Positions 6,539 to 63,054 of a stretch of 64,000 nt of DNA are shown piece after piece; the stretch's first letter is position 1; each line of letters begins with the position of its first letter. Where the stretch lies: positions 2,108,001 through 2,172,000 of the forward strand of contig JAPDRO010000001.1 in the NCBI GenBank assembly GCA_030247885.1, given 5' to 3'. The translations under genes and the position numbers were made by a program. The stretch is from Taxawa tesnikishii (nom. ined.). Its lineage: Eukaryota; Ascomycota; Dothideomycetes; Dothideales. The notes below the pieces were generated by a model. The model did no database searches, was not told the DNA's origin, and saw only the letters and a list, made by a program, of their open reading frames with translations.

Positions 6539-9500
6539 ATGGCGACGATGCAACGAGAGCATGACCTGTTGATCTTGGTCGATGCTACAGCTTCCATGGG
6601 CCAGTATCTTGACGCCCTCCGGAAGTCTTTGCCTCAGATCCTCGCGCTGTCCACCCTCACAGACTGTTTCTCTCGCATTGGTATCATCGCATACCGAGAC
6701 TACGACCAAGTTGAAGGAAGAATTGTTGAGTGGTCCGGATGGCAGGACAACCATGGTCAAGGCGCGGATATTACTCAGATGGCCGCCAATCTCTTGCAAC
6801 TTGGAGGCAGAAGCTGGGACGAGGCTGTGAAGACAGGACTCGCCAAAGCTCACGAGGTTATGAGAGATGATGCGGAAACCTTGATCTTACTGTACGCCGA
6901 CGCTCCACCTCACAACGAGTTTTCGAGACACGACGATGAAGCGGAATTGGAGAGGAAGGCACTGTCCCAGCCTCGGGCATACAATGGTTCTGGATCGCTG
7001 TTTGTCAGTTGGCCATCTGCCTGTCACACAATGGCTGGAGAGGCCCGAGTCATCAGTATCCTGGATTCGAAGATGACGTCTGATGGGTCCATCTACTTCT
7101 ACTACCTTTCTCTCGTCACTGGAGGAACATCGATCAGGATGTCGACCACGAGTAGCACGGACATAAGCCAAGTCACAATGAACATCCTAATAGCTTGGAT
7201 GGGCGTGAGCAAAGCTGGGACAGACATTGACCACGAACTCTCGGCATCGCCAGCAAACATTATCGCTTTCACACGTCTTGATAGACTGTCGGAAGGTTCC
7301 GCTGAAACCCAATTCATGTACGAGGGAGGGCATCAACCTTCTCGAAGTGCGATTGCCTCAAAGGATCTCCCTCACAAGGCCACACCTGTCCAGGACTTTG
7401 GCCAGCGATATACGAAAGACGCCTCCTTCAGACAGCATGTTGCGGTGCAGCTCACGCGCATCATCGACACCGATGTCACTGCAATATCTCTCAATGCAGT
7501 ATTTGGCTCGTTGTGGCGGGCTGTTTGCAACGACAGAAGATCGGAACACCGGGAGGGCCTACTATCGGCTTTCGGGGCGGCCATCGAAAGGATTGCTTAT
7601 CCGAATGAGAGATCTAAGATGAAGGAATGGCTCGAAGCGAGTTGTGATTACACGGCCGAAGTAACCAGTCTGATCGAAAATGTGCCGGAAGAGAAACGCT
7701 TTCCATGCGTCTGTCTTGACCCGACCTTGAGCTTCTCTCCTAGATCTGAAAACATGGACAAACCGGACAAGACCAATGGAAATACAACACTCTCCAGGGC
7801 GGACCTCCTCGAGATTGGGCGCTCGTGCGATCCTCGAATCCTCAGTCGGTTGGGGAGATGCCTGACTCAACTAACGTATCTGGAAAGCGAGAAAGACTTA
7901 CCTCCGCACGTTGCTGCAGTTGGTCTCGACAGGGCCCCACGAATTCCTACGGCTTTGGCAGGAAAGGAATACTCCCGCAAGTTCTGGAAAATCCTACTCC
8001 ATCTGGTCGTCCCCGGTACAATGCTCTCGGCGCGCCCAGCCGCAGTTCTTGCCGCTCTTGCTCTCAAGATGGGTGTTCGTCCCCTGTTGAGCATCGCTGG
8101 ACAGGAATTGATGCTGTGGCGTGATCGATGGACAGAATCTCTTGATTTCCCAGAGACTTGGAATGTCAGTTGTCTGTCGTTGCTCCTGGATGCTAATCAG
8201 GCTCACCGTCAGTTCGAGGGGTATAAGGGAGTGCACGGTGGCTCCGATCTACTCAAGAGAGAAGACAAGCGGCTTTTCGAGAACCTTGTCGCTTACAAGG
8301 CACTTGAATCCAACCTAGATACTACGCTTGTCGCGAAGCTTGGTTACGTACCGGAGAAGAGAAGCCTCCCCGTCGGCCCGATGGTACGATGTGCTCGATG
8401 CGACATAATGCGGTCAGTCACCATCATGGGTCCTGAACATGTCTGCGGTATGTGCGCGGGTGAAGCTCCAGAAGGTCATGAAGTAGGCGAGCAAAGCGAA
8501 CCAGCGTGGGTTGAATGCGTCGTTCAAGACTGCCGGGCTCAGTACGTTGTGTACAGGCCCAATAAGCTCAATGTTCGGCCGAAATGCTTCCAATGCCGAC
8601 AAAGCCACTGCAGCGTGACTGAACTTATCATGGGTCAATGGGTTAACACATCCAGTCCGCAAGGTGGGGACGGATCGCCAATCAAGCACCATAGTTCGAG
8701 AGAACCATCCTCAGTCCTGGTAGAATGCTGCGTCTGCCTCAATCGCATGATATATCCCCAGGAGTACCGTCCGGAAGGCTTCAACGGCGATATATGGCGA
8801 TGTGTCTCATGTCAGTCTGGGAAGCAAAGCATCGTCGACATCGAGACCACAGCACGAGATCTGGCAGCTCAGAACGGAACTTCTTGGCTCCTTGCCAACG
8901 AGGAGCTTTTGTCCAAGTCGTTTGGAACGAACCGCTCTTTGTTTTCTGCCGTCTCCACGCTGGGCATACAAGACGCATTTGCCATCGAGATCCTCCCACC
9001 GAGAGATCAACCCCTCACCCTGGCGGGGAAAGCTCTCCACAACACTCCATCGATACGCGAGCAACTGCAACGCTGGCTCGACAAGCGGACAGCTGAAAAG
9101 GAACTTGCACCCTCTGCTTCTCCGCCTTCCGCAAATCCGACCTTCTTCCCGCCTGCGGACGCAGAGGGTGCATACAGCGCCTCGACCGGGAATGCCTGAC
9201 CGGTTGGTACGGCCTCAACGCTGCCGGTCGGATAATCAATACCGCTGCCCTGCACTGCCCCTTTTGTCGACGAGCGCCGACGGCCAAAACGCTGGCGAAT
9301 TACGGCACGGGTGTGCACGCAGTGCAGGACCTGGCGCTGGCCGTCGCTGATCAGTCATGGGTCTGGGCGTGGTGCCGGGACTGCAGCTGCGTGAAGCGGT
9401 ACGTGGAACGGGTGTGCGCGGCCGGAGTGCCGGAGGTGAAGAACTGGAGGTGTGATGAGTGTATCGAAAAGGCTTCCAAGGGCCAATATACCGCTGGTCG

Positions 9501-9818
9501 TGTTATGCCGTGCCCGGGATGCCAACAACCGACGGAGAAGGCGGGTGGGTGCAATCATATACAGTGTACCATTTGTGGTACGCATTGGTGTTTTGTGTGT
9601 GGGTGGACGGGTGATGAGAGCACGATCTACCCGCATTTGAGTATGGCGCATGGTGGGTTCTTTGATGGGGGCAAGAGCCGGATGGGGAAGAGATGGAGTG
9701 GGAGTCTGATGGTGAGTAATGGCATTTGCTTGTTCTGATGGTCTCGTGATTAGGCAACAATCGTAGCTTCTGTTGACGCTTGCAGTCCGACCACATGTCT
9801 TCCCAGCTCTACATGTAG
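6539..9818 (+). CDS. vWA-domain RBR (RING1-IBR-RING2) E3 ubiquitin ligase, one frame break
   Basis: Exons 6539-9711 and 9786-9818 (74-nt intron). The first 850 residues are open from ATG 6539. Residues about 8-210 form a von Willebrand A domain with MIDAS start DATAS. Cys-pair zinc motifs follow around 8390-8610 and 8725-8815. Near 9096 the frame slips by -1: AAAA at 9096-9099 seems one base short. After it the reading continues as RING1 (CTLC then CGRRGC), a compact IBR, and RING2 with CPGC and GGCNHIQC. The Cys at 9550-9552 matches the catalytic, ubiquitin-accepting Cys of RBR ligases. With one base added the CDS codes for 1,068 residues. No GT donor lies in the 130 nt before the break, so an intron is unlikely. 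The substrate is unknown; the vWA domain probably binds partners. The last 10-residue exon is tentative. Confidence 0.82.
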
Positions 9819-10441
9819 TTCGTGTCTTTTCATCATTCCCATTCATGTGGTAAAACCGTAGTTCTTGGTACGCCTTACCTGACCCTCACTGCTCTTACTT
9901 CTCTAGTGTCGTGTTCGTATGCGTATACGTGACCTCCTGTAGCAACAAGCAACAGGAACCGAAGCCTCCAGTCCAAGCCGCAGATCGAAGAAGACAAAAG
10001 CAAGACGTACTTTCCCACCGTTCGCATCAGCGCTCAGCTAGACTTGTCTGTGAACATCGTCTGCAAAGCAAAGCAGATGTGTAGTCTCAAGCGTCTTGAA
10101 GAATAACGATCTGGACCAGAATCTTCCTTAGCGAGCCCATGAGTGGAAACGTTCATTTGCATAATTCATCTGTTTTACGGGATATGTTTGTCGAGATCGA
10201 TTCTGCCCACCAAATGCCCAGTGATCGATCTCCCTCACCAGAACGCCGATGCTGTCGAGAGCTGCACATAATCCTTTCCGTATCCCCTACACCCAATCCT
10301 TACATGAGCCCCAAATGACTTTTTGTCCCCCTGATAAGCTGCAAAAGGCGCTTTGTAATATATATTTATAAGAAGGGCCAATGGGGGTGACCATGAGACC
10401 CAAATGGATAGAAAAATCGGTGGTGGTGGAGAGAAGGGGTA
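9819..10441. other. Intergenic between convergent genes
   Basis: No gene seen. It holds the 3' ends of the ligase gene (+) and PSA1 (-). An AT-rich patch (tatatatttataa) near 10360 could serve 3'-end formation on either strand. Confidence 0.5.
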
Positions 10442-12598: not shown

Positions 12599-13835
<1,237 letters not shown>

Positions 13836-14493: not shown

Positions 14494-17400
14494 ATGCTTT
14501 GCTCCAGGAGTCGACTCGTCCGAAGGATAGCCGGGACTCATCATGGTGCAGTTGATGTCCGACTCAGGTCGTTGCGGTGCAGAGGGGTGGCGACGAAGTC
14601 TGACGACGTTAAAGAAACAAGCAGTGCTGGAGAAAGCACGCTGGTACGATACGTACGACACCCTCAGGACTGGGTGCCATTGAATAAGCTGAAGACGTTT
14701 TCTCAAGGACGGACGGAAAAGAATGGGGGAAAGAAGCGGGAAACCCATACACAGGAGGGCAAGCAAACAGGGCGTCGACATGAGTTCCAAACTGTTCTGA
14801 CCAACAACCCAAACCAAATTGTAGGCACCGTGAAGTGGTTGTGATGAGCGTCCATTAACATCGTTCTAGACCTTTCGCACACTGCTTGCTCAGCTTAAGC
14901 CCACCACGCTCCCGAACAATGGAGCGAATTGTCCGATCTTGGTCTTCTTGGTTAGCACTGCCTATGCTACCAGTGTTACACAAGAACCAGACCTTGTCAA
15001 AGACACGGCTGTTCGACTCACACGAAACGCGATTTCTACCCAAGGCAAGAATTCAGGGGAATTCCATACGATTGTGGCGGTGGTGGACAAGCTCCCGGCA
15101 CCGACCACCTCTACGTGTTCAATCAACGCATTCCGAGAAGAACCAGAAGATGAAGGTTGGGAGGGTCTCTCTTACGCTTTCCTCGACGGGACGGAGGACA
15201 CAAATGCGCTCAACGTGCCCAGCAATGGGCCCGCATCTGGAAGCTCGGCCCAATACTCAACTCCTAGTCCGGCCACCATGACCTTTAACTTCTCCAAGGG
15301 ATATGGAACGGTATGGAGCGACTCTGCAATTACTTGCGCCTACTCGGTCCAAGTTCCTCTCGCGAATACTGTCTTCCGTAACGGGCTACCGTCGACCTTA
15401 CAATACACGATCTACGCTCAAGATGGGACATCTGGAGATGTCGTCAAGACCATCTCTCGCCGGCTAAAACACCACAGTGTCACATTGCCTATCGTGCCTG
15501 CGGGGCAGTACCACCCCACAACAGGAACCCCAACGGTTGTCTCCGCGCCAATTGTGCCTTTGACTGCAGCAAGGCCTGTGGCTGCCTCTATGGGTAACAT
15601 CCTTCGCCGCCTGGCTGTGTCAACGGACCTCGAATCTGGGGACACGTCCGTACCCGCCTCACAAGAACTCGAGGCAGCCGTACAATCCTATTTCAAAGCT
15701 CGTCAAATACCCCCACAGACTGTATCTGTCTGGGCTCTTATCATTCCTAAAAAGCAGATGCAGGACATCACAGAAGCTGACAACTCCGAGCCTGGGCGGA
15801 CGGCTGGTTCCTGGGTAGAATTTAGCTCCAACTTGCTGAATATGGGAATCGATGACCTCGAGCAAGCGTGGAAGGGCAAGCCTCTAGTTGGTTTGAATGG
15901 CAGTCTCAGTATCCTTGGCAAGCTCTTGGTTCGTGGTTGCAAGCTCTGTAAGGTCCTATCAGGAGGTGGTGGTTGGGGCAAAAAGCGGGTTTACTCTCAT
16001 TGGATCCGGACATCGACTACAACACGAACAAGGATACCAACGCTTTCACAGATCGGACCATGCCCTCTTTCTTTGAAGATGAGGCCCAGGTGCGGAGCTC
16101 GGCGCTGGGGGACATCTTTCGGCCTGGGGACTATGTTCAGTTCTTTATTAGGCCGACAGATTTCGATGAAGACCCCGTATCGGATGCTCAAGTCCCTACG
16201 GACAGCATTGAAATATGGATCCGGAACTCCAAGCGTCGCAACGTGGTGAGCTTTGGTGTCGTTCCAAGCACGATTGACGCCATGCCAGCTTTGGAAAAGA
16301 AAACGGACGCGATGTCCAAGTTCATCACTGTGCCGACCACTTTGGGGCACTATCTGAGACTGGAATTGCTTTGACTCTTAACCGACACAAGGGCCGGTCC
16401 GGGCCGGTCGAACGACTCACTGCTACGCGTCTTAACGTTCCGTTTGGTCGTTTTGTTGTCAAGGAGACGAAAGAGCGGCTCAAGCTTCGGATGAAGGGAC
16501 AGCTGGGAGGGCTTTCGCACTTCTCTCAGACAAGGCCACTGTCGTCGCCTTGTCGGTATGGGTTTTCGAGCAGCATAGACCATGATCGATATTATTGCAG
16601 ATCAGTTGCTCCCGACAATCATTGGTCAGCGCGCGGCTATGCGACATTTTCAAATAAGAAAGGGTCTGCTACCTCTACTAGCACCGACAGATTGGACCGA
16701 AGTTCTGATGGCGTTACAGTGTCCAAGCCAAGTTCTAAATTTAGATTACGTCAAAGAAATCCACCAGGAGCCAATGGCAAGACGGGCATAGAGAAGCAGG
16801 CGTCCGGGAAACTTATCAGGAAGCACCTTGCCACTGATAGGGATGCGATTGAGAACTCGGCGAAAGTGAAAGCTATGGAGAACTACGAACGCAGCCGCAG
16901 GCACGGTGCTAGACCTTCCGCAGCTACGAATTCAGAAGATAGTTCGAGGCCGGCGTCTGAATCAGACGATGTGCCGTCTATAGGGGAAAAATCGATGCAA
17001 ACAGCAACCGATGTCGATTCAGAGCAACAGTCCGAAACTCCTACAATTCGCAAATTCGCGGCTCAGGGTTTTAGAAAGACCGTACCACTGTCCATGCCGC
17101 CAGTGCCGCGCAGCGTTCCAATTCGTAGGTTTCCGACGAGCAGTCTGAATGTAGTGAAATTTCTTTCAGGCCAGCCTGTGCAGCATACACAAACTACCAC
17201 CTTACCCGACACTCACACTGCAGATACGCCTCGACATGTGCGACAAGAGATTTTCCGACGGAAGAAGTCTGATGCGACATTTCGCAAACATTCGGCTAAA
17301 GGCATTACGCATACTAAGGTTGTACCGCCGTCCTTGCCGTCACTACGACGCAGCATTCCCCGGAACGTGCTAGGGACGCCTACTCCTCAACTGATACATG

Positions 17401-20708: not shown

Positions 20709-23700
20709 TCAGTTGGCAAACACAGCATCCCAGCAATCCCCCAATAATCCCTCGTCTCCACTTCCCAAATCTGGCATCACAATGCCCCTGTATACCTCGC
20801 CCGGTATCTCAGTTCCACTGCTTGCGCTCGCCCAGTCCGCAATCGGGACCTCATCATTGCTCCCCAAGCCCTCGTCCGCCGACGAGAAACTCAGCACACT
20901 CTCGCTCTGCGGCGCCGGAACCGACGTGGAAAGGGATGCGCCCGCAAAGTTCTTTGAAAAGTGGCGGTTGTCGTGATGCTCACTCAACGCCCAGATATCC
21001 GGGCTCCAAGCGAGGCTGTCACCGACGTTAGCGGCCGGGTTTGCAGGCAGCGGTGGGATGATATCGGTCAGCGCGTCGACAGGCGGGCCGCCGTAAATGT
21101 TGTCGAAAATGTTTGTTTGGCCGTTGTCGATGCTACCGAGCAGGCGCTCCCAGTCCGAGGGTTCGGTCTTGACCGTCGCGGGCGTCTGCGAGCGCGCTGC
21201 GCTATTATCGGCGGCAAAGGAAAGATAGTCGAGGTTCAAGCTCTGAGCAGGCGCCGGGTGTTTCCGTTCGCTGGCAGGGGGCGCAGAGGGACGGGGTACG
21301 GCGGCGGGGCGGCTGTAGATGTTAGTAGGGCTGCGTGCAGGTTCCGAGCGCGAGACGTGTGCCGGGTCGTAGTTTGAGTAGATGCTGACGTTGGGTTGGC
21401 TGTGTGTTTGCAAGCTGTGTCGGTACATGGTGATGTTTGGTTCCGTGGCTCTGCGGTGGTCGACCGAGGATGGAAGCTTGGATGGCTTGCTGTTAGCAGT
21501 CATGAACCGCGCGGCTACCGCCTTGAGCTGTTTTTGGCTGCACTGGACAGATTTTGTGGAGCAGGCATCGTGCTCCCACCATCAGAATTATGGCGCGACA
21601 GTGGAGGGTGGCCGAGTGCGGTGCTCTTTGTTGGCTGCGGCGAAGGGACTGGCAGGAAGGAACAGGCGACTCTTCGGAACTCCGAGGCGCACAAGGCCTT
21701 TGCGCGATCAAGCTGCAAAACCACTGCTCCGATCATCTTTTGATTATCCTTGAGAAGCTTGCTGTTGGCGTCGAGCTCCAATCCTTGGTAAAGAAGACCA
21801 AAACCCGAAAGCACTAGTAGCTCCTCTTTGTTGAGACAGAAAGAGAAGCTCAATCCTCTCTCAGTCAGGAGCTGCATAATCTGAACAATATGCTTGCATG
21901 ACCCTGCCATCGCAATCATGGAAGAGTGAGAGCGCCTACCCAGCGAAGCGCAAACAGCAGGGCGGTGGATCAGGGCACGGATGTAGTGGTATGTAAGGGA
22001 CTGGAACAAAGTTAGTATGGAATCAGAACGCAACACGCTGAAAGGTGCTGACCAGTAGAGGAGATCGGCTGCTGATAGTGCCAGTGCTGGGCTTGTCCTG
22101 TGCAAACGTGAGACGCAGATGTGGGGCGAGCGACGATGACCATTTATCGAGCTCGTCTGAGAGCGCGGAGAGAGTTTGCAGCGAGAGGTCGTATGAGGGC
22201 AAGGCAGGGTACACCTCTTCGAGTACCCTGGATAGAACACGTGTACCACGGAAAAGAGCTAGAGCGCTAGATAACTTGGTTGATTCTCCGGGGAGAGTAG
22301 CCTGGAAGCCGCGTTCGGAGACGTACTCATCATCCGCGTCGACAGGGTATTCACAGTGGACATCATCATCCTTCAACTGTTTCGGCAGCCCGAGCAGAAC
22401 GGCAGAAAAGCTGCGTATCGTCAGCCAGGGGAATCATGTGTAACACTGGGGGCGGCGGTACCTGTCGATCGTATACAAGGTCCAAAAGACCTTCTTCCTA
22501 GTTTCGCAGGTCAAAGTCCCAAGAGCGAAACGCTTCTGAGACTGGTGCAAGCCGAGTCGCGATGACAGCGAAACAGCTAGGCCCTTGTAAGTCGAGAGTT
22601 TGGCATAGTCGCCGCGTTGAATGCAGTACAACTGTGCGAGAACAAGGCATTGCAAAGCAGCGATGGTGTGGTCGGACAAGAGCGAAGCTAGCGCAGCCTG
22701 CCACTGCACCTCGAAAGACGCTAGATCGCTCGATAAATCCTGAGACTGCAAGGCGTTAGTTGGTGTTTTCCCCATGCATGTAAGCTCGCGTGACTTACGC
22801 CACTAGAGAGGGCTGCCAAGCCAAACACGAGATTGAGCTGTGCCAGGCTCGCTTTGTCCGTTATGGCCTCTGGAGTTGCAACGTACGATTCGTACAATGA
22901 TAGGAAAGTAGGCCGATGCAATACTGGAAACAAAGGAGCCCATTCTTGGAAAAAGATGTTGACCATCTGATCGGCGACGAGTCGCGGAGGGGCCTTCCAG
23001 ATATCTACAGATTGCGACACTGTACGAAGGCGCTTCTGGCCGCTGGAGAGAAGGGTTCCTGTGTTGATGTCTGCGGTAGACCTGCCGGTCTCCTGTACCT
23101 TCTGCTTGAAGGCATCTAGGTGACAATCAGTCGACGTCTGCCAAATACACAGTCAAGGAAGCATACCTATGAAGGTCTTGCTGCTCGATGTACCGGAGAA
23201 ATAGGAGCTGGTTCCATTGCCGTGCAGTAGATACGATGATTGCTGTACTTTGAAAGTTTCATCCTTTTGGCTCGGAGGTTCTGTCGCACTGTCGGAATGG
23301 GCGCTTGGGGGTGATCCACCGAGGACCGGCGTGGTGAAGGCAGACGTATGGGTTGTGACGACTGAGAGTGTATCTTCGACAGCATATCGATCTTTTCGTC
23401 CTTCTCATCAAGTAGTTCCTTCAGTTCTCTGACTTCCGTTTCCAGGCACCGTACTCTCTCCTCCAACGACTCTGTGTAACCGCGTGGGAATGCACGACGG
23501 CTGAGCTTGTCACTCGTTTTACATTCGAATCCAACGTTGGCGCACTGTGAGCAGCATGGACGGATGCCATCGCATCGTATCTTCTTGCTACGGCATCTGA
23601 CGTGAAGCCGTAAGTACGGGTGATCAATGCCTATCGGTCAAATAGCGGTCATACCTGTCGCATGCTTGGGCAATGCGCGTCTGCGCATTCGCGCCCACCT

Positions 23701-27397: not shown

Positions 27398-29550
27398 ATG
27401 CCGCACCATCAAAAGCCATCCGGCGCAGAGACGCTGCCTGCAACGACTAGTTATGGGCAGGTGATCGAGTACATACAAGGTTCGTGATACCCCGATCTCC
27501 TATCTGACGCAAGCCCCTAGCGTCGCAGTGTATTCCCTTTGGACCACGTTGCTCACCCATCTACAGACCGTCTCTACCTCGCATCGTACACGCACCCACC
27601 GAATGAGCACACTCCGTTCCCGTATCCTCCAAAGCCGACAAGGTCACCACACAAGCGGTCTGCGAGATCGCAACAAGGACCTACGCCAGCCTCTGCAACA
27701 CCGTCCCTGCCTCCCGTGTACTTCTCCATTGACAAGCATTTGCTATACAACGCTTTCCATGCCGACTTCGGTCCGTTGCACATTGGTCACCTGTATCGGT
27801 TTGCGGTTCTGTTGCACGACGTGTTAGGAGACCCGGACAATGAGAACAGGGCAGTAGTTTTCTGGAGCAATGCGGATTCAAGGAGTACGTTGCGGGCGAA
27901 GCAGTCGTTCAAGACGAGATTCGCTAACCTTGATGCACAGGTCGGGCAAACTGCGCATGTCTCCTGGCCTGTTACATGGTCTTGATACAGAACTGGCCAC
28001 CTCATTTGGCTCTTGCGCCAGTTGCACAAATGGACCCACCGTGTATGCCGTTCCGCGACGCTGGTTACAGTCAAGCAGACTACGGTCTTACCATTCAGGA
28101 TGTCGTCTACGGCGTATGGAAGGCGAAAGAAGAGGACATGATTGCGCTCAAGGACTTCAGCCTGGAGGAGTAAGCTCGCGCCGAATTCTCCTGAATCGAC
28201 GTTCACTAACCATACATTCCAGGTATGAGAGATATGAGCGGGTGGACATGGGTGACTTCAACTGGATCACACCGTCTTTCGTCGCATTCGCCTCTCCTCA
28301 ACATCAACCCACATACCCGATCGCCCCCAGCGATCCACTCTACGCCTCGCTTCCTCGTTCCATCTCCGCAGTAAAGGCGAACAGAGAACTTCCACAACCG
28401 TTCAGGAACGTTCTGTCGCATTTTACGGAGCGGGGTGTAGGGCTCGTTGTTCGTCTAAACTCCGAACTCTACTCGCCGTCGTATTTCACAGCGCTTGGAA
28501 TCAAGCATCTGGACATGATCTTCGACGATGGCACCTGCCCGCCACTCAGCCTGGTTCGGAAATTCATCAATCTTGCTCATGAGATGATCACTGTTAAGCG
28601 GAAAGGAATTGCCGTTCACTGCAAAGCTGGACTTGGCCGCACCGGGTGCTTAATAGGCGCCTACCTGATCTACAGGTACGGTTTCACAGCCAACGAAATG
28701 ATTGCATTCATGCGCTTCATGAGACCTGGCATGGTCGTCGGACCCCAACAACACTGGCTACACCTCAATCAAGGCACGTTCCGCGAGTGGTGGTTCGAGG
28801 ACACTATGAGGGAGAAGATAGTGGCATCTATGGTGCCTTGTACACCCACAAAGTCGGCAACCAGGCACCGGCTTGCGAGCAATGGTCAGACTTTCACTCC
28901 GCCAAACGGTCGCAGCACGCCTCGCGCTGCCCTTGGTGAGATCACAAACAATGACCAGCATCAGGTAGCGGCGTATGCGAACAGCATCGGGGTACAAGAT
29001 GAGAATCTCCCGCGCCGACGCCAGGCCAGCCCCGGAAGACAAGCAAGGCCTATGGCATGAGTGGCTCACGCAAGAAGTTTGCCGGTGTTCAGGAGAACGA
29101 GCCATTCGAGATCCGGCCAGATACCGAGATCGTCAGTATGCAACGGACCACGCTCGGCGAGAGCGAGAGCGAGGAAGAGGTTGCACTGCGCATGTTGAGC
29201 AGCCGAAAAGCCAGCCAATCGCCCATCAGCCGCAGTGGCAAGCGTCGCGCTGTTAGCTGCACCACCACAACCACTACCATGACGAAGTGGGACGTGGATG
29301 ACGGCAGCGATGTCGAGAACCGCATTCTGGACGATGCTGCGGGAGTCAAGGAAGAGGGTTCTCCCGTCAAGGAACGGAGACCCAAGACGCCCAGCTCGAA
29401 AGTGGGAGTGGCATCGGTAGCCTCAGCCAGGCGAAGAGGAACAGCCCGCTGCGCCGCAGCACTGAGGGCAAGACGAGCGTGCGCAAGACGAGTGGCCGTG
29501 TGGGCAGCGTAGGCGCTGCTGCCTCTGCCACCAGGAGTAGGCCGTCATAG
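27398..29550 (+). CDS. CDC14: Dual-specificity protein phosphatase Cdc14 (mitotic exit), two frame breaks
   Basis: Reverses Cdk phosphorylation at mitotic exit and cytokinesis. Exons 27398-27479, 27567-27884, 27941-28169, 28223-29550. The N-terminal A-domain includes VYFSIDKHLLYNAF and the segment DPPCMPFRDAGYSQADY. The catalytic B-domain contains the PTP loop HCKAGLGRTG (Cys nucleophile, Arg) at about 28617-28646, preceded by the general-acid region FDDGTCPP and followed by MRPGMVVGPQQHWL. The tail is basic and Ser-rich, with SPVKERRPKTP-like sites. Frame breaks: CCCC 29031-29034 and GGG 29404-29406. With two bases added the product has 652 residues and ends ATRSRPS. The donor of exon 2 lies within aggAGTACGT, so Ser comes from a split codon. 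Confidence 0.95.
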
Positions 29551-31300: not shown

Positions 31301-34300
31301 ATGTCGTTCGGCGGCGGCAGCGGTTTTGGAGGGTTTGGTAGCAACAACAACCAGAACACTGGCTTTGGAGGATTCGGTTCGAACAACAACAACAACAGCA
31401 GCAACAACAACAATGCAGGAGGTAAGCCCAGCGCACACAGTTTCTCGGCAGTCTTGGGGTGGAGTGGATGGCAAATCCTGGGTGCTCCTTGCGCGCATCT
31501 GCTTCAGTGACGAGGGTTGGGGCTAATGCAAGCTTCTTGTTGCATACAGGATTCGGCTCGAGCACAAATACCGGTTTCGGTAGCAACAGCAATCCCGGAG
31601 GTGGCATGTTTGGAAGCAACAACACTGCAGGCACTACTGGTTTCGGCGGTTCCGGTACGTCACAGTGCGCGCACCACGATGACCCCTTCCATCAGGACAA
31701 GCTAGAAGCATCTCGACAATGTGTCTGCTAGGAGGAATCGATCTTGCTGACGTGTCTCTTGCGCAGGTTTCGGATCGAACAACAACGCCTCCCCTTCGGC
31801 GCCAAACCCGCATTTGGTGCCTCTACCACGTCTAGCGGCGGCGGACTCTTCGGCAACAACACCGCAACAACTAGCAACACCGGCTTTGGGGGTTTGGTAG
31901 TACTGCGAATAACAACAACACCACCACCACCACCACTGGCTTCGGCAGTTCGAATAATGCCCCGGGCGGACTGTTCGGTTCAGCACAAAACAAGCCGGCG
32001 TTTGGCTCCAACACGGGCGGGAGCATCTTCGGTGGTGGTGGTGCATCGACTGGATTTGGCTCAAACACTAACACCACCAGCGCTTTTGGCGGCACATCGA
32101 CTGGATTTGGTGCTAGTGCGAACACTCAACAGAACAATGGTACTGGCGCGGTCCCTTTCTCTGCATTTACGGAGAAAGACACCGCGACCAACGCCAACAG
32201 TCATTATCAAAGTATCACATTCCAGCAGCCCTACCAGGGCTTCTCCTTTGAGGAGTTGAGGTTGGCCGACTATAACCAAGGGCGAAGGTTTGGCAACAGT
32301 AATGGACAGGCGGGCGGTTTTGGCACAAGCACCGGATTCGGAGGCTTTGGAGGCACCAACACCCCGGGCGCCACCGCAGGCTTTGGCGGCACAGCCACCA
32401 CCGGCAACAACGTGTTCGGCAGCTCCACTACTCAGTCGCCTTTCGGACAGAACAACCAACAAAGCACCACCGGCGGCTTCGGCAGCGGAGGTGGACTGTT
32501 CGGTGCTCAGAAGCCCGCCGGTTCGCTCTTTGGAAGCACACCGGCGTCTTCTGGTACGACTGGTGGCGCTTTGTTCGGCACGAGCGGGACGACTGGGGGT
32601 TTCGGTAGCGGTGGGTTCGGCTCTGGTGCGAACACTGGCAACACTGGGACGAGCTTGTTCGGAAACAACAATAACAACCAGAACCAGCCGAAGCCTGCTT
32701 TTGGCGGATTTGGCGCAAGCACCACGGGAGCGAGCACAGGCTTCGGATCTGCAACAGGCGGGTTCGGCTCTACCCAGACCTCTACTGGTGGAACCGGATT
32801 GTTTGGAAATGCCGGGACAACAACCACTACCAACAACCCCTTCGGTGGGAACCAGCAGTCTTCTGGCACACCCAACCCCTTCGGTGGGTTTGGCCAGAAC
32901 CAAAATCAAGGCCAGAATCAAACTCAGACTGGTAGCTCCCTCTTTGGTGGCTTCGGCAATCAGCAGAACCAGCAGAACCAGCAGAAGTCGTCGCTGTTTG
33001 GAGGCTCGACAGGCACCGGCACTGGCACCGGCACTGGACTCTTCGGTAGTGCCACCAACAACACTCAGACGACTGGAGGTAGCTTGTTTGGCGGCAACAA
33101 TAACCAGAATCAGCAGAAATTATCCTTGTTTGGCGGCCCCACGGGCACCGGGACCGGCGGTAGTCTCTTTGGCGGTGCCAACAACACTACCAACACCGGC
33201 ACTAGTCTTTTGGTAATACCAACAACAACAACACTAGCACCGGCACTGGCTTGTTTGGCAACCTCAACAACAACAACAACCAACAGCAGCAACAAGGCTC
33301 GAGTCTGTTCGGAGGCTCACTAAACAACAACACCGCTACGGGCAACACTGGCGGTGGCCTCTTCGGCAATCTGGGCAAGCCTCAGGCTACAGGCTTTGGA
33401 ACTTCTCAGAACCAGCAGACCGGCAACAACAGTTTGTTCGGTGGGTCGCAACAGGGTGGACAATCTCTAGGCACTTCGTTCACCGCATCTGTGCTCTCAG
33501 GAAACCCATACGGCAACGACCAGCTCTTCGCCAATCTGACTAGCCCATCTGCACCGGTCGGCCCGCTGGCTACACCGTTATCCGGCGCACAAAAGCCGGC
33601 GAAACGCCCACCAATGCTGCCAACTTTCAAAATCAACCCGAGCAACAGCTTGCGCCTCATCACACCTCAAAAGCGCGGGTACGGATTCTCTTACTCCACC
33701 TATGGAACACCTGGCAGTGCTCAGACTTTCAGTGGGTTGGGAAGCAGCTTGTTATCGTCTGGAGGTGGTCGGTTGGGCCACTCTCTCGGAAAGAGCTTCT
33801 CCACCACCAACCTCCGCCACTCGTTCAATGCAGAGGAAAGCGTGCTGGCTCCGGGAGCCTTCACTCCAAACTACTCGCGCCCTTACTCGAGCAGCAGCAT
33901 TAGGAGGCTGAAGATCGACCGTACTCTGCGTACCGACCTTTTCGGCACCGATGGTGCTACCGAGGGCCCCGCTGCCAAGAAGCGCGTCAGTTTCGACGCG
34001 GTTAATGGCACCAAGGACAAGCAGACGAACGGCGACGCCACTCCCGGACCCAACAATGCATTGGTCAGGACGGAGACGGATGGCCCAGAGCCGAGCTCCG
34101 AGGAGCTGGGTCTTTGCGCGCTCCACGTCCAAACACAAACGGCACCAAGACCAATGGGACCTCTGACGGTCCGGAGATGGAGCAGGTGCGTGGCAGCGAG
34201 CTTGCCATCGTTCCTGAGAACGAAGCAGCTCCTGCTGCAGCCCCTCCCAAGCCTTCAACGAGTAGATCACAGAAAGACCAGCAACTTGGCGAGTACTGGA

Positions 34301-38637: not shown

Positions 38638-38673
<36 letters not shown>

Positions 38674-39269: not shown

Positions 39270-39364
39270 AATTGGTGTCGAGATCGCCGTTGAACAGGGC
39301 TACGCAGGAGGGACTGTTCGAATTTACGGAGAGGGGATCAATCCCCTTCCTTTGCATTTGAGGT

Positions 39365-41092: not shown

Positions 41093-43043
41093 TCAGACAT
41101 GCCTCCACTGCAAAACAAGCTTGTTCCCCTTCGGTGAAGCCGTATACCCGTCAGTCTGTTCAATCCCTTCCGCATCCACGACATGGCTTGTAAAGTTCGT
41201 ATAAAGCGCCGCAACTGCATGCTTCATAGCTGCACGTCCATCACGTTAGCACTCTGCTCCTGACGTGCCAACCTTGAATCCAAGGCACAAACAATTCAGA
41301 AACTTACAATGCGTGGCAAAATTGCTCCCGATGCACATCCTCCCCCACTGCTCCAGGCCCAGAACCACCGGCGCATCTCAGCAAGCTGCGCGGCGTCAGC
41401 ATCCAACCAGCGCTTGGGCCTCCACTCTTCGGGCTCTGGAAACACATCCGGGTTCCGATGCAGGGAGTATGCAGACGATTGAACCCGTACACCGGCAGGA
41501 ATGTTGTCGTAGCCGGCGAGACTGCAACCGCCTGCCGGTGTGACCCGCGGCTGCCCGCCCGGCACCGCAGGCCAGAGCCGTAACGTCTCCTGTAAGATAG
41601 CATCGAGCAAGGGCAATGCATCGACGGCTTTGGGATCTGGCAGGGCATCGCTGGCATCTGAGGGGCGCGGGAAAATCAGAGGTGGATCCAACGTTAGTAG
41701 TTCGCGGCGTAGACATGCCTGCACCGCAGGACGCAACGAGAGCTCGTACAGCAGCCAGGTCAGCGTAGGCCCACTGGTTTCATGCGCGGCGACCATGTGG
41801 TCGTACATCTCTGTCGCGAGATCCAGGCGGAAGGGGTAGGGCTTCTCACTATCTGCAGCAGCTGCCTTACGCATATGAGCGCGCTGATGGGCAAATACGA
41901 TGGGCCGGTCTCGTGGGGATGGGTCGGAATTTTCGGTCAGAAGCTGCTCCGCCGAGTCGCAGAACTTGAGCAGCCAGGCTCTGAGTTCTTCGGCCGCTTG
42001 ATCACAGTGTGCAGGGATGAGCCTAATTCCGATGGTGCGAAGCCAGTGCTCCACGCGTGGCATCGAATCGATCCAGAAAAACCATGGCCGGGGGCTGGAG
42101 TAGTTATGGAGGTACCTGGCAAAGGTCAGAATATCCTCAGATTTCTGGGCACAGCTCACGACTCTATCAGGCGCCGGTGTTCCATAAGGCCGTTGGTAGA
42201 CGGAGACCCCTTTGGACAGGCGGTCACTAGAGGGGCAGTCTGTTAGACTGGGATCCGCTTGTTGTCTCAGGCGATTGCCCGATACTCGCATTTCAGTAAG
42301 AACTTGCGTACTGCCGACGGCCTGTTGAGAACACCGGCATCTAAATATGTTATACTGGGTACTACGTACCAACTCCGCTCCGAGACATTCTGGACGAGGT
42401 TTGGAGCGATCTTGAGACCAAACTGGAAGCTCATGAAAGTGTTCATGGAGTAGCCGTGGTTAAGGGATAGAACCTCGACCGGTTGATTACTCTCGGAGCT
42501 TGCTTGTATGATGGGCAGGAGACGGTCAAATAGCGTAGCCCTTGTTGTTTCAGCAACCGTCGAAGATGACAGGATGTACGATTTTGAGTATATTTGCGAG
42601 AGCATTCGCTTGCGGATAGAATGCTCTCTGTTGTCGATCATGGCTAACATGGGACGCATGCTATGAAAGTTAGAAGTGCTTGCCCGTCTGCAGAGACCAT
42701 TGCTTTACCCATAGTTGGTGAAACGGCGGACGTAGAACCCATCCTTCAGAAACCCACCAGCATAGATAGTTTTCAATCCTTCCTCATAACAGTTGATACT
42801 AAGTTCGTTTGGGGCCAATCTGAGGATGGGTCCCTTCTTCGTGTGCAGGTCACACACCGCTCGATTTTCCTGGCCGGTATACCGTGTGTAATACAGCCAG
42901 ACCGGTGAGATATGAGCCGAGAAATTCACAGCCGGGATTTTCGATAGAGGAGATATGAGTATGGGATAAACAAGGAACTTGTATAAACCCAGAACGAGAG
43001 CGACAGAGGCGGCCAAGACGGAGACGCTAATCAGTTGTAGCAT
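41093..43043 (-). CDS. Cytochrome P450 monooxygenase,one frame break
   Basis: ER-anchored heme monooxygenase; substrate unknown. Exons in reading order: 43043-42709, 42660-42370, 42115-41308, 41229-41093. Start is the ATG at 43043, giving the anchor MLQLISVSVLAASVALVLG. Seen: I-helix AAHETSGPTLTWLLYEL with the acid-Thr pair, the K-helix ETLR, and the heme-binding loop FWAWSSGG then RMCIGSNFATH containing the axial Cys. The loop is interrupted by a frame break at GGGGG (coding strand, 41346-41342); one added base gives a continuous 523-residue protein of normal length. Intron 2 is 254 nt, longer than most here. Neighbouring genes do not suggest a biosynthetic cluster. Confidence 0.93.
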
Positions 43044-47482: not shown

Positions 47483-49899
47483 ATGGCGCAAGACGGAGGC
47501 CTCTTTTCCGTGCGTCGACCACGGGAGGTAAGTCACGACCTACGTGCACGCATGACCTCACTCGCGCCTTCTGACACGCCAATTGCAGACACTCGGCAGC
47601 ATCAGTCACAATGTATCCGCTATCCCAATGCCTTCGTCCGCTATGAAGCGCTCGAACTCCATCTCCAACCTGCAAGCGCCAGGCACAGCACAGCATGTGC
47701 GCTCAACATCTGGATCGCGCATGTCTCTTGCACCTGGGAGACCTAGTCAACCCATGTTCCAACGATCGTCTTCAGGAACCAACCTCGCCGACATGGGATT
47801 TTCCACGGTACAAAGACCTTCGACTCAGAACATGTTCGCAAGCACAGGAGGCAGGAAGAGCTATGCGCCGGTCAGCAGTACTCCGGCACCAGCACCAAAT
47901 TTTCTGGACAGTACACAAAGGAGAAGCAGTGTATACAGTGCTCGGCCCTCTGCAGGATTTGGAGGCCCTATGGGACATCAGTCTTTCTTTGCGACAGCAC
48001 CTCCAACGAGCAATACACCGCAGGATCCTCGTAGGCTGAAGGACCTCAATACACGTACGCAGATGGGCCAGGAGCTTATGGAGTTCCTGACGCAGCGCGC
48101 CTTTGAGATGGAGATGAAACATACCCTGACAGGCAGGACGATGATATCTCCAACGCAAAAGGATTTCAACCTAATGTTTCAGTTCCTGTATCATTGCATA
48201 GATCCAGCATATCGATTTCAGAAGAACATTGATCAGGAAGTACCACCGTTGCTGAAGCAGATGCGCTATCCATTCGAGAAGACCATCACGAAGTCGCAGC
48301 TTGGGGCTGTTGGAGGAAACAACTGGCATACTTTCCTTGGCTTGCTTCATTGGATGATGCAGTTAGCGAAGATGATGGAGCAGTACGCCGTAGGAACGTT
48401 CGACGAGGCATGCGTAGAGGCAGGCTTCGACGTTACCGCAGACCGCATCACTTTTGATTTCCTCAGCGATGCCTACAAGACCTGGCTGTCTGTGGAGGAT
48501 GACGACGATGACGAAGAAGAAGCCCAGAAGCTGATCCAGCCGCACATCGATGCCATGGCCGCCAAGTTCGAAGCGGCGAACCAGCAAAACCTGGAGCAAG
48601 TTAAGATACTGGAAGCGGAAAGCAAAGCGCTGCAAGATCAGATTGATGAGCTTGGGAAGAGCGCTCCGCGACTGGCAAAACTCGATGAGCAGATCAAAAT
48701 CCTTGAGGAGGATCGAGTCAAGTTCGAGAATTACAACAGCAGCATGGAGGGCAAAGTTGAGAAGTACGAGCACCGGGTGCGCGTGCTTGAAGAAGAGATC
48801 CAAAGGATCGAGCAAGAACTTGCAGAAGCCGAGGATGAGCGCAACGGACTTCAGGACATGGTTGACAGACAAGGCATCACCGTCCAGGATATCGACCGGA
48901 TGAACACGGAGCGGAAACGGCTTCAGAACGGTGTTGAGGCTACCGTAGCTCGACTTGAAGAGTGCCGGGTAACAACGCAGCAGAAAGAAGCAGAGACTGG
49001 TGAGAAGCTAGATGAGCTGCAGCAGGCTGTGTCCAACTACAACTCCATGGGATACGCTGTCAGCATCATTCCCCCGAAGCACACAACGCCAAGGGCCAGC
49101 AGTATGAGCTGACGTTGCGTCTCAACGAGGGTCCCAGCTTCGGTTCCTCACAAATGGGCGCTTCCCAGCATACAGAATCGGACAGGCTACTTGCAGATGC
49201 CGGGAACGGTTACCAGTCGCAAAACCTGCTCAACCTGGATCTAAGAGGCGGGGTTAAGAGCAACATCATCGCCCTCAGGAAAGAGATCAGCGAACGGCGA
49301 AACACTGCGCTCGAGCAAGACATGAATAACCACGATCTGCTCGATAAGATCAGAGAGGCGATTGATGACAAGCAAGCGGAAGTGGAAGCCCTCGGCCACA
49401 GAGTGAGAGGCGCTGAGGAGGAGTTTGAGAAAACGAAAGAGGTACGTCTGCTCTGCCGGGGAGATCGAGGTGTACTCTATTGACCATTTTCTTTTAGATC
49501 ACCAACGCGCAGAAGATGGCTTCTGACGCCCAGATCGAGAAGATGGAGAAGGAGCTCGCCAAGATGCGCGCCGGCCTTACGGAGAGCGTTCAACTCATGG
49601 AGCAAAGGGAGTTTAATACAAACATCGAGTGAGTCCATCGTGCATGACACCCTAGCCAAGCAAGACTAATTGATGGTTCCAGATACGAGCAACTCCAGCA
49701 GAAATCCAACTCACTGCGGGAAGAACTTCACACCGAACTCGAACGGATCATCAACGACATCATCAAGTTCAAGGTGCACATCCAGACCAGTCTTGAGGGC
49801 TTCGAAGAGTTTGTTGCGCAGGAAGTGGAGAGGGAATGCGAGGAGCAGGAGGCCGAAGAAGCTGAGGCGGCGGAGGTTGATCAGATGATGGAGGATTGA
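47483..49899 (+). CDS. NDC80: Kinetochore protein Ndc80/Hec1, one frame break
   Basis: Microtubule-binding subunit of the outer-kinetochore Ndc80 complex. Exons 47483-47527, 47589-49441, 49498-49628, 49683-49899. A basic, Ser-rich N-terminal tail (phosphoregulated in other species) precedes the calponin-homology domain at residues about 125-270 ([15 protein letters not shown]-like [41 protein letters not shown]). A long coiled coil follows to the end, which is acidic (VDQMMED). A frame break at CCCCC 49071-49075 interrupts [18 protein letters not shown]; one added base gives 748 residues. First exon encodes only [15 protein letters not shown]. Confidence 0.95.
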
Positions 49900-50594: not shown

Positions 50595-51984
50595 ATGCAT
50601 TCACTTTCCCGTACCACTCCCCTACGCTCTGTCTTGAAAGCGAGAAGAACAATAGGCATGCCGCAACGGACACAATTCCACACCAGCTCAAAGATGGGCG
50701 CCGGTGGAACTTCAGGTGCCCTCTATGCTGTTGTGTCGTCGCCCTTCCAGGCCACTGGTAGAGAACCGGAAGAAGCGAAAGAACTGAGACACCATGCAAA
50801 GGGCGGCAAGGGCTTCATCAATCCATGGGATTCTTATATTGAAAGAGGTGGATTTGAGATCGGATGGGCGATGATCAAGTATGTTGTAGACCGCGAGCCA
50901 ATCCTGCAGCGCTAGTGCTGACAACCATCACGGCGCAAGATCCAAGGCAAATCCAACAGCCCAGACACTACACCACCAACCATCCCTGTACGCAAACCTG
51001 AGTTTCTTCCTACACGTGAGACACCCGCACTGCGAGCTACCTGGCTCGGACATGCTTGCTACTATGTCGAATTTCCGAGCGGCTTCCGCGTCCTCTTCGA
51101 CCCAGTCTTCACAGAGCGCTGCTCGCCATTCACATTCATGGGGCCGAAGAGATACACAGAGATGCCGTGCAAGATTGAGGACATACCATACATAGATGCT
51201 GTGGTCATATCGCATAGTCACTACGACCACCTGTCGCATCCCACCGTCACGGAGATTGCGAAGAAGCACCCGAACGTGCATTTCTTTGTGCCATTGAAAA
51301 ACAAACAGTGGTTTGAGAAGTGCGGCATACACAACGTGACCGAGCTGGATTGGTGGCAGTCGAGGGAAATCAAGCTGTCGGCAAGGAGAAGTTCGAGAGA
51401 CGAGCCGGCGGAAGCTAGGCATGGCGAAGACAACGAGGCAATAGAGGCAGGCGAACAAGGGGATATCTCTGCAACTCTAGGCTGTCTTCCTTGCCAACAC
51501 ACGAGCGCGCGGACTCCATTCGACAAATCGCATACGCTTTGGGCATCGTGGAGCGTGGAAAGCGGAGGGAAGAAGATATGGTTCGGCGGCGATACTGGAT
51601 ACCGTGCAGTCCCCGAGCTACCGAAAGACGTGGACGATTACGACCCGACGCACAACTTTCCCGCCTGCCCGGCCTTCAAACAGATCGGAGATCTGCGTGG
51701 TCCTTTGACCTTGGCCTGATCCCTATTGGAGCCTACGACCCGCGCTGGATCATGTCTCCTATGCACTGCAATCCATACGACAGCGTCAATGTTTTTATTG
51801 ACACCAAATGCCGCCAGGCTCTAGGCATTCATTGGGGCACCTGGGTGCTGACCGAAGAAGAAGTTCTCGAGCCCCTCGGGTCTTGAAGAAAGCTCTGGCT
51901 TGGAAGGATATCCCTGAGGAGGGTGTCTTCGACACTTGCGACATTGGCGAGAGTCGTGAGTACGGTGGGCCGAAGACGCCTTGA
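50595..51984 (+). CDS. NAPE-PLD-like metallo-beta-lactamase-fold hydrolase, three frame breaks
   Basis: Resembles N-acylphosphatidylethanolamine phospholipase D (yeast Fmp30), which releases N-acylethanolamines from membrane lipid. The N-terminus ([16 protein letters not shown] then [10 protein letters not shown]) looks like a mitochondrial presequence. The metal-binding core has [15 protein letters not shown], the HxHxDH motif in [11 protein letters not shown] (51210-51242), WFGGDTGY and [10 protein letters not shown]. Exon 1 is 50595-50878 and exon 2 50916-51984, with a very short 37-nt intron (gtatgt..gctag). Frame breaks lie at about 50938 (AA), TTT 51704-51706 and CCCC 51872-51875. Three added bases give 451 residues ending EYGGPKTP. 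The splice model around 50880-50940 is the least certain part. Confidence 0.85.
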
Positions 51985-52158
51985 TTTTGGGTGCTTGGAC
52001 CTATCGCTTGTACAGTACGTTCACTTTCGATGGTGTATTCGAACAAAGACCTTTTTTCTCTAGTTTCTTGTTGCATGGCAAGTTGGCATTAGACATTATT
52101 CTATCATCATCTCTTTTCCTTCGCAAAGCTTGGGTCTTCAACAATAGTAACCATAAGC

Positions 52159-54480: not shown

Positions 54481-54612
54481 TTCGAGGGGGCCACGCGGGG
54501 AAACGAGAACGTGACCGAGTACTCTCGATGGGGTAAACAGATGGCTTGATTTTTTTTTCTTGATTTTTTTTTAGTTTGTAGAGTACCACCAATATGCCAA
54601 ATCAAAAGATCG
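54481..54612. other. Short convergent spacer with two poly-T runs
   Basis: Two T runs of about nine and nine bases lie at 54550-54574 between the 3' ends of the hypothetical gene (+) and the cyclase gene (-). Confidence 0.6.
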
Positions 54613-59653: not shown

Positions 59654-61007
59654 ATGTCAGGCTACCTCCCACCACACTACGGCGAAGGCGAAGGCCAATG
59701 CTCCGAAATCTACCAGGCCAAGTATGATCTCAAACCCACCGACATCTCCGGCGGCTCCGAGGAGATCAAGGACTACTGGCTTGGACTCCCAGAAGACGTC
59801 ATTCCCACCGTCAACACACTCATCACGATCGGTCAGACGTCCGAGGACGAGCTGATTAAAGTGCAGCCGATCGGTTTCGGTCTCTGGGGCTGGGGGATGT
59901 GCTGAGCTACGGATGGGGACCGTCTGGAGGTTACGACCAGAAGCTCAACGACGACAGCATCCACGGCGCATGGAAGGCCATCTTCCAACGATGCACCAAC
60001 GTCCTTCTCGATACCGCAGAACACTACGGCTACACGGACGGCTACTCTGAGAAGAAGGTGGGCGACTTCTGGAGCGAGGAGCAGACGAATAATACCCTCG
60101 ATCGCAGCAGAATCGTGCTGGCGACAAAGTATTTCCCGACGCCATGGAGACATCCGTGGAGATACCCAAACATTGTGCTGGAGGCGTTCTCGGGATCCAT
60201 CCAGCGCACGAGATTGGGAAACATTGACATCTACCAGCTGCACGGACCGAGCCACTGGGGCTACTGGCCGCGCCTGGATACGTTGTGCGACGCGCTCGTC
60301 AAGGCGTACAAGACGGGCCAGTGTAAGGCGATCGGGACCTGCAACCTGAGCTTCCAGCAGGTAAAGAGTGTGTATACCATACTGAAGAGGGTACGCTGTC
60401 TCCGCCTCGAGATCCGACTTTATACGAAGCTTCCTCGACGATCACTGACAACTCAACCCTCAGCACAATGTTCCATACGTCTCCAACCAAGTCGAGTTCT
60501 CGCTCGTTCGACAAGACCCCTGGACCTGCGGCATGATCGAGAAATGCCACAAGCTGGGCGTGAGTCAACCCCCTTTCCCCCCTTACTTGCCATTTCCTCC
60601 AGCACTCCATTAACCCTTCTTGCCTCCAGATCGTGACCATCGCCTACAGCCCCATCGCCCTCGGCCGCCTTTCGGGCAAATACAGCAACCGCAATCATCC
60701 ACGCGGCAACCGCAACTTCGGCCACATCCAGTGGGACAAGATCCAGCCGATCGTCGACGAACTGACGCGCATCGGCGCAAAGGAAGGCAAGACGCCCTCG
60801 GCCGTCGCGCTCAACTGGGTCATCTGCAAGGGCGCGATCCCCATCCCAACGGTCAAGAACCGCGACCAGGTCACGGATAACCTGCAGGCTTTGGGCTGGC
60901 GGTTGAGCAAGGAGGACGAGAACAGACTTGATGTGCTGGGCCTGACCAACTCGCCGGATTGGTACACTTACAGCCACTTTCAGAACTGGTGGTGGCAGCA
61001 AGGATGA
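59654..61007 (+). CDS. Aldo-keto reductase family protein, one frame break
   Basis: NADPH-dependent oxidoreductase of the (beta/alpha)8-barrel AKR superfamily; substrate unknown. Exons 59654-60390, 60464-60559, 60630-61007. An N-terminal extension of about 70 residues precedes the barrel. Catalytic positions visible: Asp and Tyr in LLDTAEHYG, Lys in LATKYF, His in YQLHGPS. Cofactor-end motifs are IAYSPIALGRLSGKY and IPIPTVKNRDQV. A frame break at GGGGG 59892-59896 divides GLWGWG from DVLSYGWG; one added base gives 403 residues. ATG at 59654 is the first in frame (59648 is GTG). The fungal relatives I recall are similar in length. Confidence 0.9.
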
Positions 61008-61676
61008 CGTTGCCGCTGGATTGCGTCGCGTGTATTGTCCGGTGCTGGGTTGTGGGAGGGAGGTTCAAGGTCAGGGTCATCTCGGAACCGATCACAAGCA
61101 ACGACAAGATTACGAACAGACAACGATACTCAAAGTAGTGATGTGCATTCTATATGGCATTCGCCTAGCAACTCTGTTCAGACGGTACGATTACATGATC
61201 CAGACGTAGATACGGTGTGGTATCTCTTGTAGAGCACAAGGCCGCCACCCCACAGCGCGATCTATCTCGCCGGCAAGCTCATACCGGTCGTTAGTCCCAG
61301 TTATTCTGCACATCGCCCTCATAGTTATTGACAACACAGAGAGGCTAGGATTGGTCCAAATGCATGCTAAGCGTACCGTAGTGCATGCAGGATGACGTGT
61401 ATTAACCCTCAGAACGGAGCGTAGTAATCCTCAAATCCACCACCGTGGACCCGGAGAAAGGCCCCCAGGTGCATCAATGCGGCTCCACCGGCATCTGTTT
61501 CCCGTACCAAAGTCTCTTTGCACTGGTCTGTTTGTATACATGTTTTGATTGAGTCGCTTGCATGGCGCGAAAAGTTGCTCTCTTCTCTGCAAGCGGCCGT
61601 CCTGTGTGACCATGGTATCAAGGCCGAGCCTTTCGCGTAGGCATCTTGCAATCTACAGTATTCTTGCGTTAAGATA
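61008..61676. other. Intergenic between convergent aldo-keto reductase and ZIP genes
   Basis: No gene seen. A 147-codon minus frame (61852-61409) runs across the ZIP last exon in another frame and is a shadow. Confidence 0.5.
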
Positions 61677-63054
61677 CTATGCCCACTTGCCGAGCAGCGA
61701 CATGATTGCGGCGCCGAGCAGCACGCAGAAAGCCATGAAGCAAAGACGTTTGAAGTCTCTCCTCTTCTCAGGATCGAACAGGAAATCCCTCGCCAGAAGC
61801 TCGACCAGTCCGTTGTACAGAAGAATGCCTGCGCTGACGGCGTCGGCAACACCGCTTACAACAAGCTGTAATGAACGTCAGTGTTGAAGAACTTCATAGC
61901 ATCATCCAAGGGAGATCACTCACGGCAGTCATTCCTCCGGAATTGTATGTTGTCCTGACCCCGAGACCAACAGCAATCGCGATGGGGGTTGTTAAACCAT
62001 ACGCCACACACAGAACCCATGGAAGCCAGTTTGTCAAGTCCTTTGGAAAAGGAATGGCAGACATGCGGGCGCCGATTCCGAGGCCCTCGAAAGACTGATG
62101 AAAGATGAGGACGGGATAGAGGATTTTCCACTCGTCGTCGGCCACCCCAAAATTGAGACCTGCCCGGACGGTCAGCATCACAACACACCACACTGGATAA
62201 CGACGATTGACAAGCCGTACCGATGAAAACGGAATGAAGAATGATGCCAGCTTCCATGATAAAGAAGGCCATGAACTGCTGCCGAAAAGCAGTCCTGTTC
62301 AGCTCGTCTGAATCGGCGACAGAGACAGCGTCGCCCGCTCTCGTAACCTTCCTGTAATGGTTGCGGTCATCGTTACACTCGCAGTTGACTTCCTCGTCTT
62401 GCGTGCGCATGTGTGGAGCTCCGCCCGACGTGATTTCCTGGCAACGATAATTTCCTCGACGCTCGTCGCCGTCTCAAATCCATACTTCTGCCTGACATAT
62501 TCCTGGCAGCTCACGTCTACAAGGAAGACAGCCATGCAAGAAGTCAGGAGGATTGCAGGGGTCCAGGAGTAGGCCGACCAAGCCCCCGGGGTCATGCCGA
62601 CACAGGTATACGGACCGATTGAGCTGTACGCAGGATCAAGCCTGGAGGGAGGAGGGTAAGAAACCGATTGCGAGAAAGACGTTAGTGCAAGAGCGTTGAC
62701 AACGTACAGATGAACGAACGCAGTAGCCACGATGACACCGGAACCGAAGTATCTTGCGAAGAGGTAGACGTAGCGCGGTATGCTGAGCCACCTTATGCGC
62801 TTCGCGAGGACCGGGAAGACTGTGGTAGCTGTAGACACAATCTAACGTGGTTCACTATTCAGTCCAATCTTCGTCGACAGCTGCAGAGCGCAGTCCGGCG
62901 TTGCTCTCACTCACAAGAATGACGAGCAAGGCCGATATGCGTCCCCTAAACCACCAGTGTATCCATTTTCTGACAGTTGCTCGTAGCAGGCAACATCTCG
63001 GGGACTCGCCGTGTCGAGGTCGACGTTGTGCGGGTCGAAACCTGGAGTGAACAT
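61677..63054 (-). CDS. ZIP-family zinc/iron transporter, two frame breaks
   Basis: Plasma- or organelle-membrane importer of Zn2+ (or Fe2+), similar to Zrt1/Zrt2. Exons in reading order: 63054-62915, 62841-62221, 62159-61924, 61865-61677. Eight membrane helices are expected; visible ones include RISALLVIL, the segment YFGSGVIVATAFVHLY, ILHSVFIG and PVLIFHQSFEGLGIGARM. The last two hold the metal-path signature of helices IV and V (HSxxIG, HQxxEGxxxG). The loop between III and IV is Cys/His/acid-rich (EVNCECNDDRNHYRK). Frame breaks: coding-strand GGGG 62946-62943 and AAA 62436-62434. Two added bases give 395 residues ending LGKWA, as in fungal ZIPs. Confidence 0.93.

Follow-up and report, generated by a model that had tools for sequence, protein, structure and literature searches.

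Errors in homopolymer length are, after those at Dcm sites, a leading error in consensus sequences built from Oxford Nanopore Technologies (ONT) data, and wrong run length is a main error class in the Guppy and Albacore consensus of Klebsiella (PMC6591954). In a fungus, ONT-only assemblies of Drechmeria coniospora have been reported to carry homopolymer errors that shift reading frames and that BUSCO (benchmarking universal single-copy orthologues) overlooks, and the same study warns of improbably short introns (PMC7500977). Here we describe frame breaks of this kind in Taxawa tesnikishii JES_119. The window analyzed (the whole stretch of 64,000 bases, C1:2108001-2172000) belongs to a contig of 2,828,030 bases, in a genome of 29,367,862 bases and 34 contigs. 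The initial annotation of the window had described frame breaks at homopolymers, all of them repaired by adding bases, and had attributed them to under-calling in unpolished long reads. Our results indicate that the breaks are very likely nanopore losses left uncorrected in the JES_119 assembly, of one or sometimes two letters per run, and not mutations.

The strain is a black fungus of the Dothideales obtained from desert soil crust. Its genome has been published, and with it a new genus was proposed that has T. tesnikishii as type species (PMC11195213). According to that paper, the genome is of ONT origin, with a read depth of 194.58x for nanopore and 25.38x for Illumina data and base calling with guppy 3.4.4. 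Complete BUSCO genes amounted to 97.4% with Illumina and 92.9% with nanopore data, a comparison close to the test before and after polishing that had been proposed in the initial annotation (PMC11195213). Table 2 of the same paper gives 38 scaffolds and 29,383,553 bp for JES_119, the difference from the assembly used here being presumably due to the dropping of small contigs.

Results

The direction of the breaks was evaluated with a three-periodic coding model that includes introns, starts and stops (the frame model), where a lost and a gained base carry the same penalty. It was applied to the window and to 23 other stretches of 8-10 kb (226 kb in total), taken from 15 of the 34 contigs, and was trained on the same DNA that was later scored; stretch L016 (see below) was excluded. 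With a penalty of 9, the window had seven losses and two gains, whereas the other stretches had 21 losses and no gains; at least one loss was called in 14 of these 23. The resulting 28 losses against 2 gains would be very rare under symmetry (the probability of at most 2 gains in 30 being 4e-7). Losses also predominated with every other penalty, with loss:gain totals of 68:15 (penalty 5), 41:7 (7), 19:1 (11) and 13:0 (13), the signal being less pure at the looser settings of 7 and 5; errors are thus mostly losses even at the loosest penalty. Simulated indels, placed within called coding sequence and away from breaks, were recovered equally in both directions (76 of 112 losses and 75 of 111 gains, one of the latter called as a loss). 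One of the seven losses in the window, at 34118, was modelled as an intron under other settings.

The one-way character of the breaks proposed in the initial annotation was borne out. Both gains called in the window (13148 and 31888) fit double base losses better. At the first, two frames of a Mnn9-like gene match consecutive residues of yeast Mnn9 (PDB 3zf8), and the match is gapless only if two bases are missing. The site is therefore likely to be two bases short, although the alignment could also accommodate one surplus base together with one missing residue. At the second, the phenylalanine-glycine (FG) repeats of Nup145 step through three frames by eye, with one base lost at each step, and the frame model fuses the breaks at 31791 and 31888 into one gain.

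Independent evidence comes from two proteins that show longer runs at four sites; they are encoded on separate contigs labelled 'lgn', of unstated strain, run and platform. Protein P0010, from a contig of 45,643 bases, matches the window NDC80 in three frames with 369/370, 130/130 and 12/12 identical residues, the sole mismatch sitting at a break. It spans two breaks, one in a CCCCC run of the exon and another in a GGGG run of the intron; the latter carries the most weight, since no reading frame constrains the sequence there. Protein P0121, from a contig of 59,372 bases, spans two breaks in CDC14 with 255/255, 135/144 and 49/50 identical residues, and its mismatches are the places where the alignment overruns a join. 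For both genes the only genome matches lie in the window. In their simplest placement, the runs at the four sites verified by these copies have written lengths of 3, 3, 4 and 5 bases. We take 'lgn' to denote the Logan assembly of Sequence Read Archive reads. Logan assembles short reads into contigs and calls genes with Prodigal (PMC12424806), which fits the translation of P0010 through an intron. The 'lgn' contigs would then derive from the Illumina reads of JES_119.

Homology also locates several of the breaks. In the gene for an RBR-type E3 ubiquitin ligase, all seven homologues tested (of the 120 matches listed) switch frame at the break, four of them at 9097/9100, while in the other three the frame matches overlap there. 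No independent Taxawa copy was among those 120 matches, which comprised the protein of the window itself and its homologues. In a Zn2Cys6 regulator gene, the match to the Fungal_trans profile is split between two frames, positions 2-59 lying in the first and 51-163 in the second, with some 17 bases between them. The cytochrome P450 domain lies in one frame and by eye its heme motif resumes in the next, although the 43-residue remainder gave no Pfam match. The first frame of the NAPE-PLD-like gene matches PDB 4qn9 up to residue 296 and the second from residue 298; these alignments leave 68 bases (51627-51694) unassigned, and both the continuity of these bases with the first frame and the position of the join were judged by eye, the latter from the matching CPAF...GP-FDL stretch. 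A search of PDB with the aldo/keto reductase piece returned a weak match that stops short of the break, and two gene pieces at 15-17 kb gave zero matches in Pfam.

The errors concentrate at homopolymer runs. With penalty 9, 21 of the 28 losses (75%) had a run of at least four bases within 25 bases, compared with 31% of random coding positions; with penalty 7 the proportion was 63% against the same 31%. The run-length spectrum was then compared with the expectation of an order-2 Markov model over 290 kb. Six-base G/C runs were found 4 times where 38.6 were expected (ratio 0.10), and six-base A/T runs 23 times where 46.0 were expected (ratio 0.50), while four-base runs were in excess (observed/expected of 1.14 for G/C and 1.08 for A/T). 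Outside the coding sequence called by the hidden Markov model, six-base runs were also depleted (G/C, 4 against 26.4 expected; A/T, 16 against 33.9), which implies that codon selection is not the sole cause of their scarcity. Totals for L016 (G000:C10:500001-510000) were kept apart. This stretch has a GC content of 0.329, compared with 0.52-0.55 in the other stretches tabulated, and may be an AT-rich repeat or an island resembling those of repeat-induced point mutation. The longest runs in the window are two T9 runs at 54550-54572, separated by 5 bases; runs longer than six are otherwise absent from it.

The breaks have consequences for the gene models. An exact mapping of the deposited CDC14 protein (P0122) to the window involves three introns, two of which (Table 1) are likely to be false. 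About 150 residues at the N-terminus, present in relatives such as P0125, are also absent from this protein. The written frame of the E3 ligase ends at 886 residues (P0241), ahead of the RING module that its homologues carry.

The coordinates of the breaks are collected in Table 1. The 15 runs named in the initial annotation are all present, 14 of them where they had been placed and one, at 29031, displaced by one base. Evidence beyond the open frames was obtained for nine (9096, 15980, 31791, 33208, 34791, 41342, 49071, 51872 and 59892). The break assigned to 29031 is real, but P0121 locates it at 29009-29012, some 20 bases away. For the remaining five (16344, 17701, 21531, 23307 and 62943) the evidence is the arrangement of open frames, which in every case fits a lost base. 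Six further breaks were identified, at 13148, 22.72-22.80 kb, 29399, 31888, 49458 (in the intron) and about 51700. The overall tally (24 breaks, with 12 genes affected out of 25) was not reproduced; 15 sites had been listed, and the gene annotation used here is partial.

Table 1. Frame breaks and related features in the 64-kb window (window coordinates)
Feature	Coordinates	Strand	Evidence
Frame break, AAAA, RBR-type E3 ubiquitin ligase gene	9096..9099	+	Written frame ends before RING module; homologues
Frame break, GGGGG (CCCCC on gene strand), Mnn9/Anp1-like mannan polymerase gene	13153..13157	-	Frame model: net gain at 13148
Frame break by AAAAA, gene of no assigned family	15980..16006	+	Frame model in two of three listed runs, not in the third (penalty 9)
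Frame break within Fungal_trans domain, Zn2Cys6 regulator gene	22760..22778	-	Open frames overlap at 22724-22802
Intron of 62 bases, deposited CDC14 model	28965..29026	+	Spans break at 29009; P0121 reads stretch as protein
Frame break, CCC (simplest placement), CDC14 phosphatase gene	29009..29011	+	P0121 crosses, identical on both sides
Intron of 29 bases, deposited CDC14 model	29357..29385	+	Just before break at 29399; P0121 reads stretch as protein
Second CDC14 frame break, AAA (simplest placement)	29399..29401	+	P0121 crosses
Frame break, CCCC, Nup145 FG region	31791..31794	+	FG motifs shift to next frame, by eye
Frame break, GGGGG, Nup145 FG region	31888..31892	+	FG motifs shift to third frame, by eye
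Frame break, TTTT, Nup145	33208..33211	+	Frame model, all three listed runs
Frame break by CCCCC (34791), Nup145, after Nup98 autopeptidase domain	34775..34795	+	Frame model, all three listed runs
Frame break, CCCCC (GGGGG on gene strand), cytochrome P450 gene, within heme-binding motif	41342..41346	-	Pfam and by eye
Frame break, CCCCC, NDC80 kinetochore gene	49071..49075	+	Frame switch in copy P0010 and in homologues P0001 and P0002
One base short, GGGG, inside NDC80 intron	49458..49461	+	P0010 translated through intron: identical flanks, different frames
Frame break, NAPE-PLD-like metallo-hydrolase gene	51695..51719	+	PDB 4qn9; called at 51699 by frame model (penalty 7)
Frame break by CCCC, NAPE-PLD-like gene	51872..51875	+	Frame model at penalty 7 only
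Frame break, GGGGG, aldo/keto reductase gene	59892..59896	+	Frame model, all three listed runs; Pfam domain begins shortly after

Among other features of the window, the open frame at 43730-45052 on the reverse strand has, by Pfam name, a Tle1-like catalytic domain (a phospholipase effector type of the type VI secretion system); in a fungal frame, this family name would carry no functional information. Searches with Rfam (gathering thresholds) and ARAGORN (bacterial settings) gave zero matches within the 64 kb.

Discussion

The nanopore signal is nearly constant within a homopolymer, so that the base caller under-counts the run, and this would be the origin of the losses described here. The use of guppy 3.4.4, the disparity between 195x nanopore and 25x Illumina coverage and the BUSCO gap point to a consensus set by the nanopore data, which the Illumina data would have left uncorrected. 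Gene prediction on such a sequence would then end frames early, as in the written frame of the E3 ligase, or invent introns, as is likely in the deposited CDC14 model. Homopolymer under-calling from long reads, as proposed in the initial annotation, is supported by the direction of the breaks, by their sites, by their presence in 14 of the 23 other stretches, by the missing long runs and by the intact copies. The term 'unpolished', used there, is an interpretation, the published account being different (see below).

Three other explanations for broken frames have to be considered. Homopolymers are also sites of polymerase slippage, and the breaks fall in recognizable genes, as would be the case if the genome had accumulated many pseudogenes through one-base deletions at slippage-prone runs. 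Such decay would nevertheless have reached NDC80 and CDC14, two genes that are essential in other fungi, and slippage would be expected to produce gains too; furthermore, a run in an intron is also short and otherwise identical copies on separate contigs are intact, all of which makes real decay most improbable. The nearly uniform direction of the shifts could also be expected if programmed ribosomal frameshifting, or some other decoding rule, rescued the frames. However, by eye (no motif search was run) the only feature common to the sites is a run, which may be of A, C, G or T; one of the sites is intronic, and on the separate contigs no shift is needed to encode the proteins, so that we assign this possibility practically no probability.

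That many of the apparent breaks are instead unrecognized introns or splice choices, with no bases missing, finds some basis in the exchange of an intron for a loss by the frame model around 34118 between settings, in the introns that the deposited CDC14 model uses at two breaks, and in the PDB alignments at 51.63-51.69 kb, which taken alone leave room for one. On the other hand, the supposed introns of CDC14 are translated in P0121, and at 9097-9100, 22.76-22.78 kb and 49073-49079 the homology is unbroken over overlapping open frames, where an intron would not fit; the chance that introns account for many of the breaks is very small. With respect to the run-length spectrum, there is a slight chance that, besides base-calling error, the fungus has truly purged long G/C runs, in which case the sharp cut at six bases would be partly biological.

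Several observations weigh against uncorrected nanopore losses. The authors describe the assembly as a MaSuRCA hybrid that combines nanopore and Illumina reads (PMC11195213), which should carry Illumina accuracy; the absence of a correction step is therefore our inference and not their statement. In JES_115, the sister strain with the same described methods, the BUSCO order is reversed (92.6 with nanopore and 90.2 with Illumina data; PMC11195213), so that the BUSCO difference alone would not prove a nanopore-set consensus. The 'lgn' contigs are of unstated run and platform. A quarter of the losses have no run of at least four bases nearby, and of the four sites verified by the copies, two have a written run of three. 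A/T runs of at least seven bases are near expectation (10 against 13.4 in all, and 10 against 10.8 outside coding sequence), some long runs persist (T9 twice, T11 and G11), and the expectation itself came from a Markov model of this very DNA and not from another fungal genome. We found no description of the error in print: the word 'homopolymer' is absent from the available text of PMC11195213, where 'polish' occurs once, with reference to Exonerate, and no further paper on this assembly was among those listed in our literature searches.

If uncorrected nanopore losses extend to the whole genome, some ten to forty thousand bases would be missing from it, according to a rough extrapolation. The lower rate, 0.34 per kb, is derived from the 28 losses, a recovery of 68% and 122 kb of called coding sequence; the higher, 1.4 per kb, corresponds to four breaks in 2.8 kb covered by the two independent copies, and is biased upwards because NDC80 and CDC14 were chosen on account of their breaks. 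Anyone drawing on this genome for gene counts, intron statistics, lost domains or pseudogene calls would be misled, and public databases already contain at least one T. tesnikishii protein. Correction should be possible with the published Illumina reads of JES_119 (BioProject PRJNA631111).

The finding is an artefact of a known kind, with a precedent in a fungus (PMC7500977), and is of low biological interest, while it has real practical value for users of this genome. Klebsiella differs from the case described here in being a bacterium in which Dcm sites dominate the errors; its homopolymer error with Guppy 2.2.3 is 0.07% (PMC6591954), set against the rough 0.03-0.14% per base estimated here. 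Polished assemblies of D. coniospora more often over-predict run length (PMC7500977), whereas the errors in T. tesnikishii are nearly all losses, as in an assembly without run-length correction.

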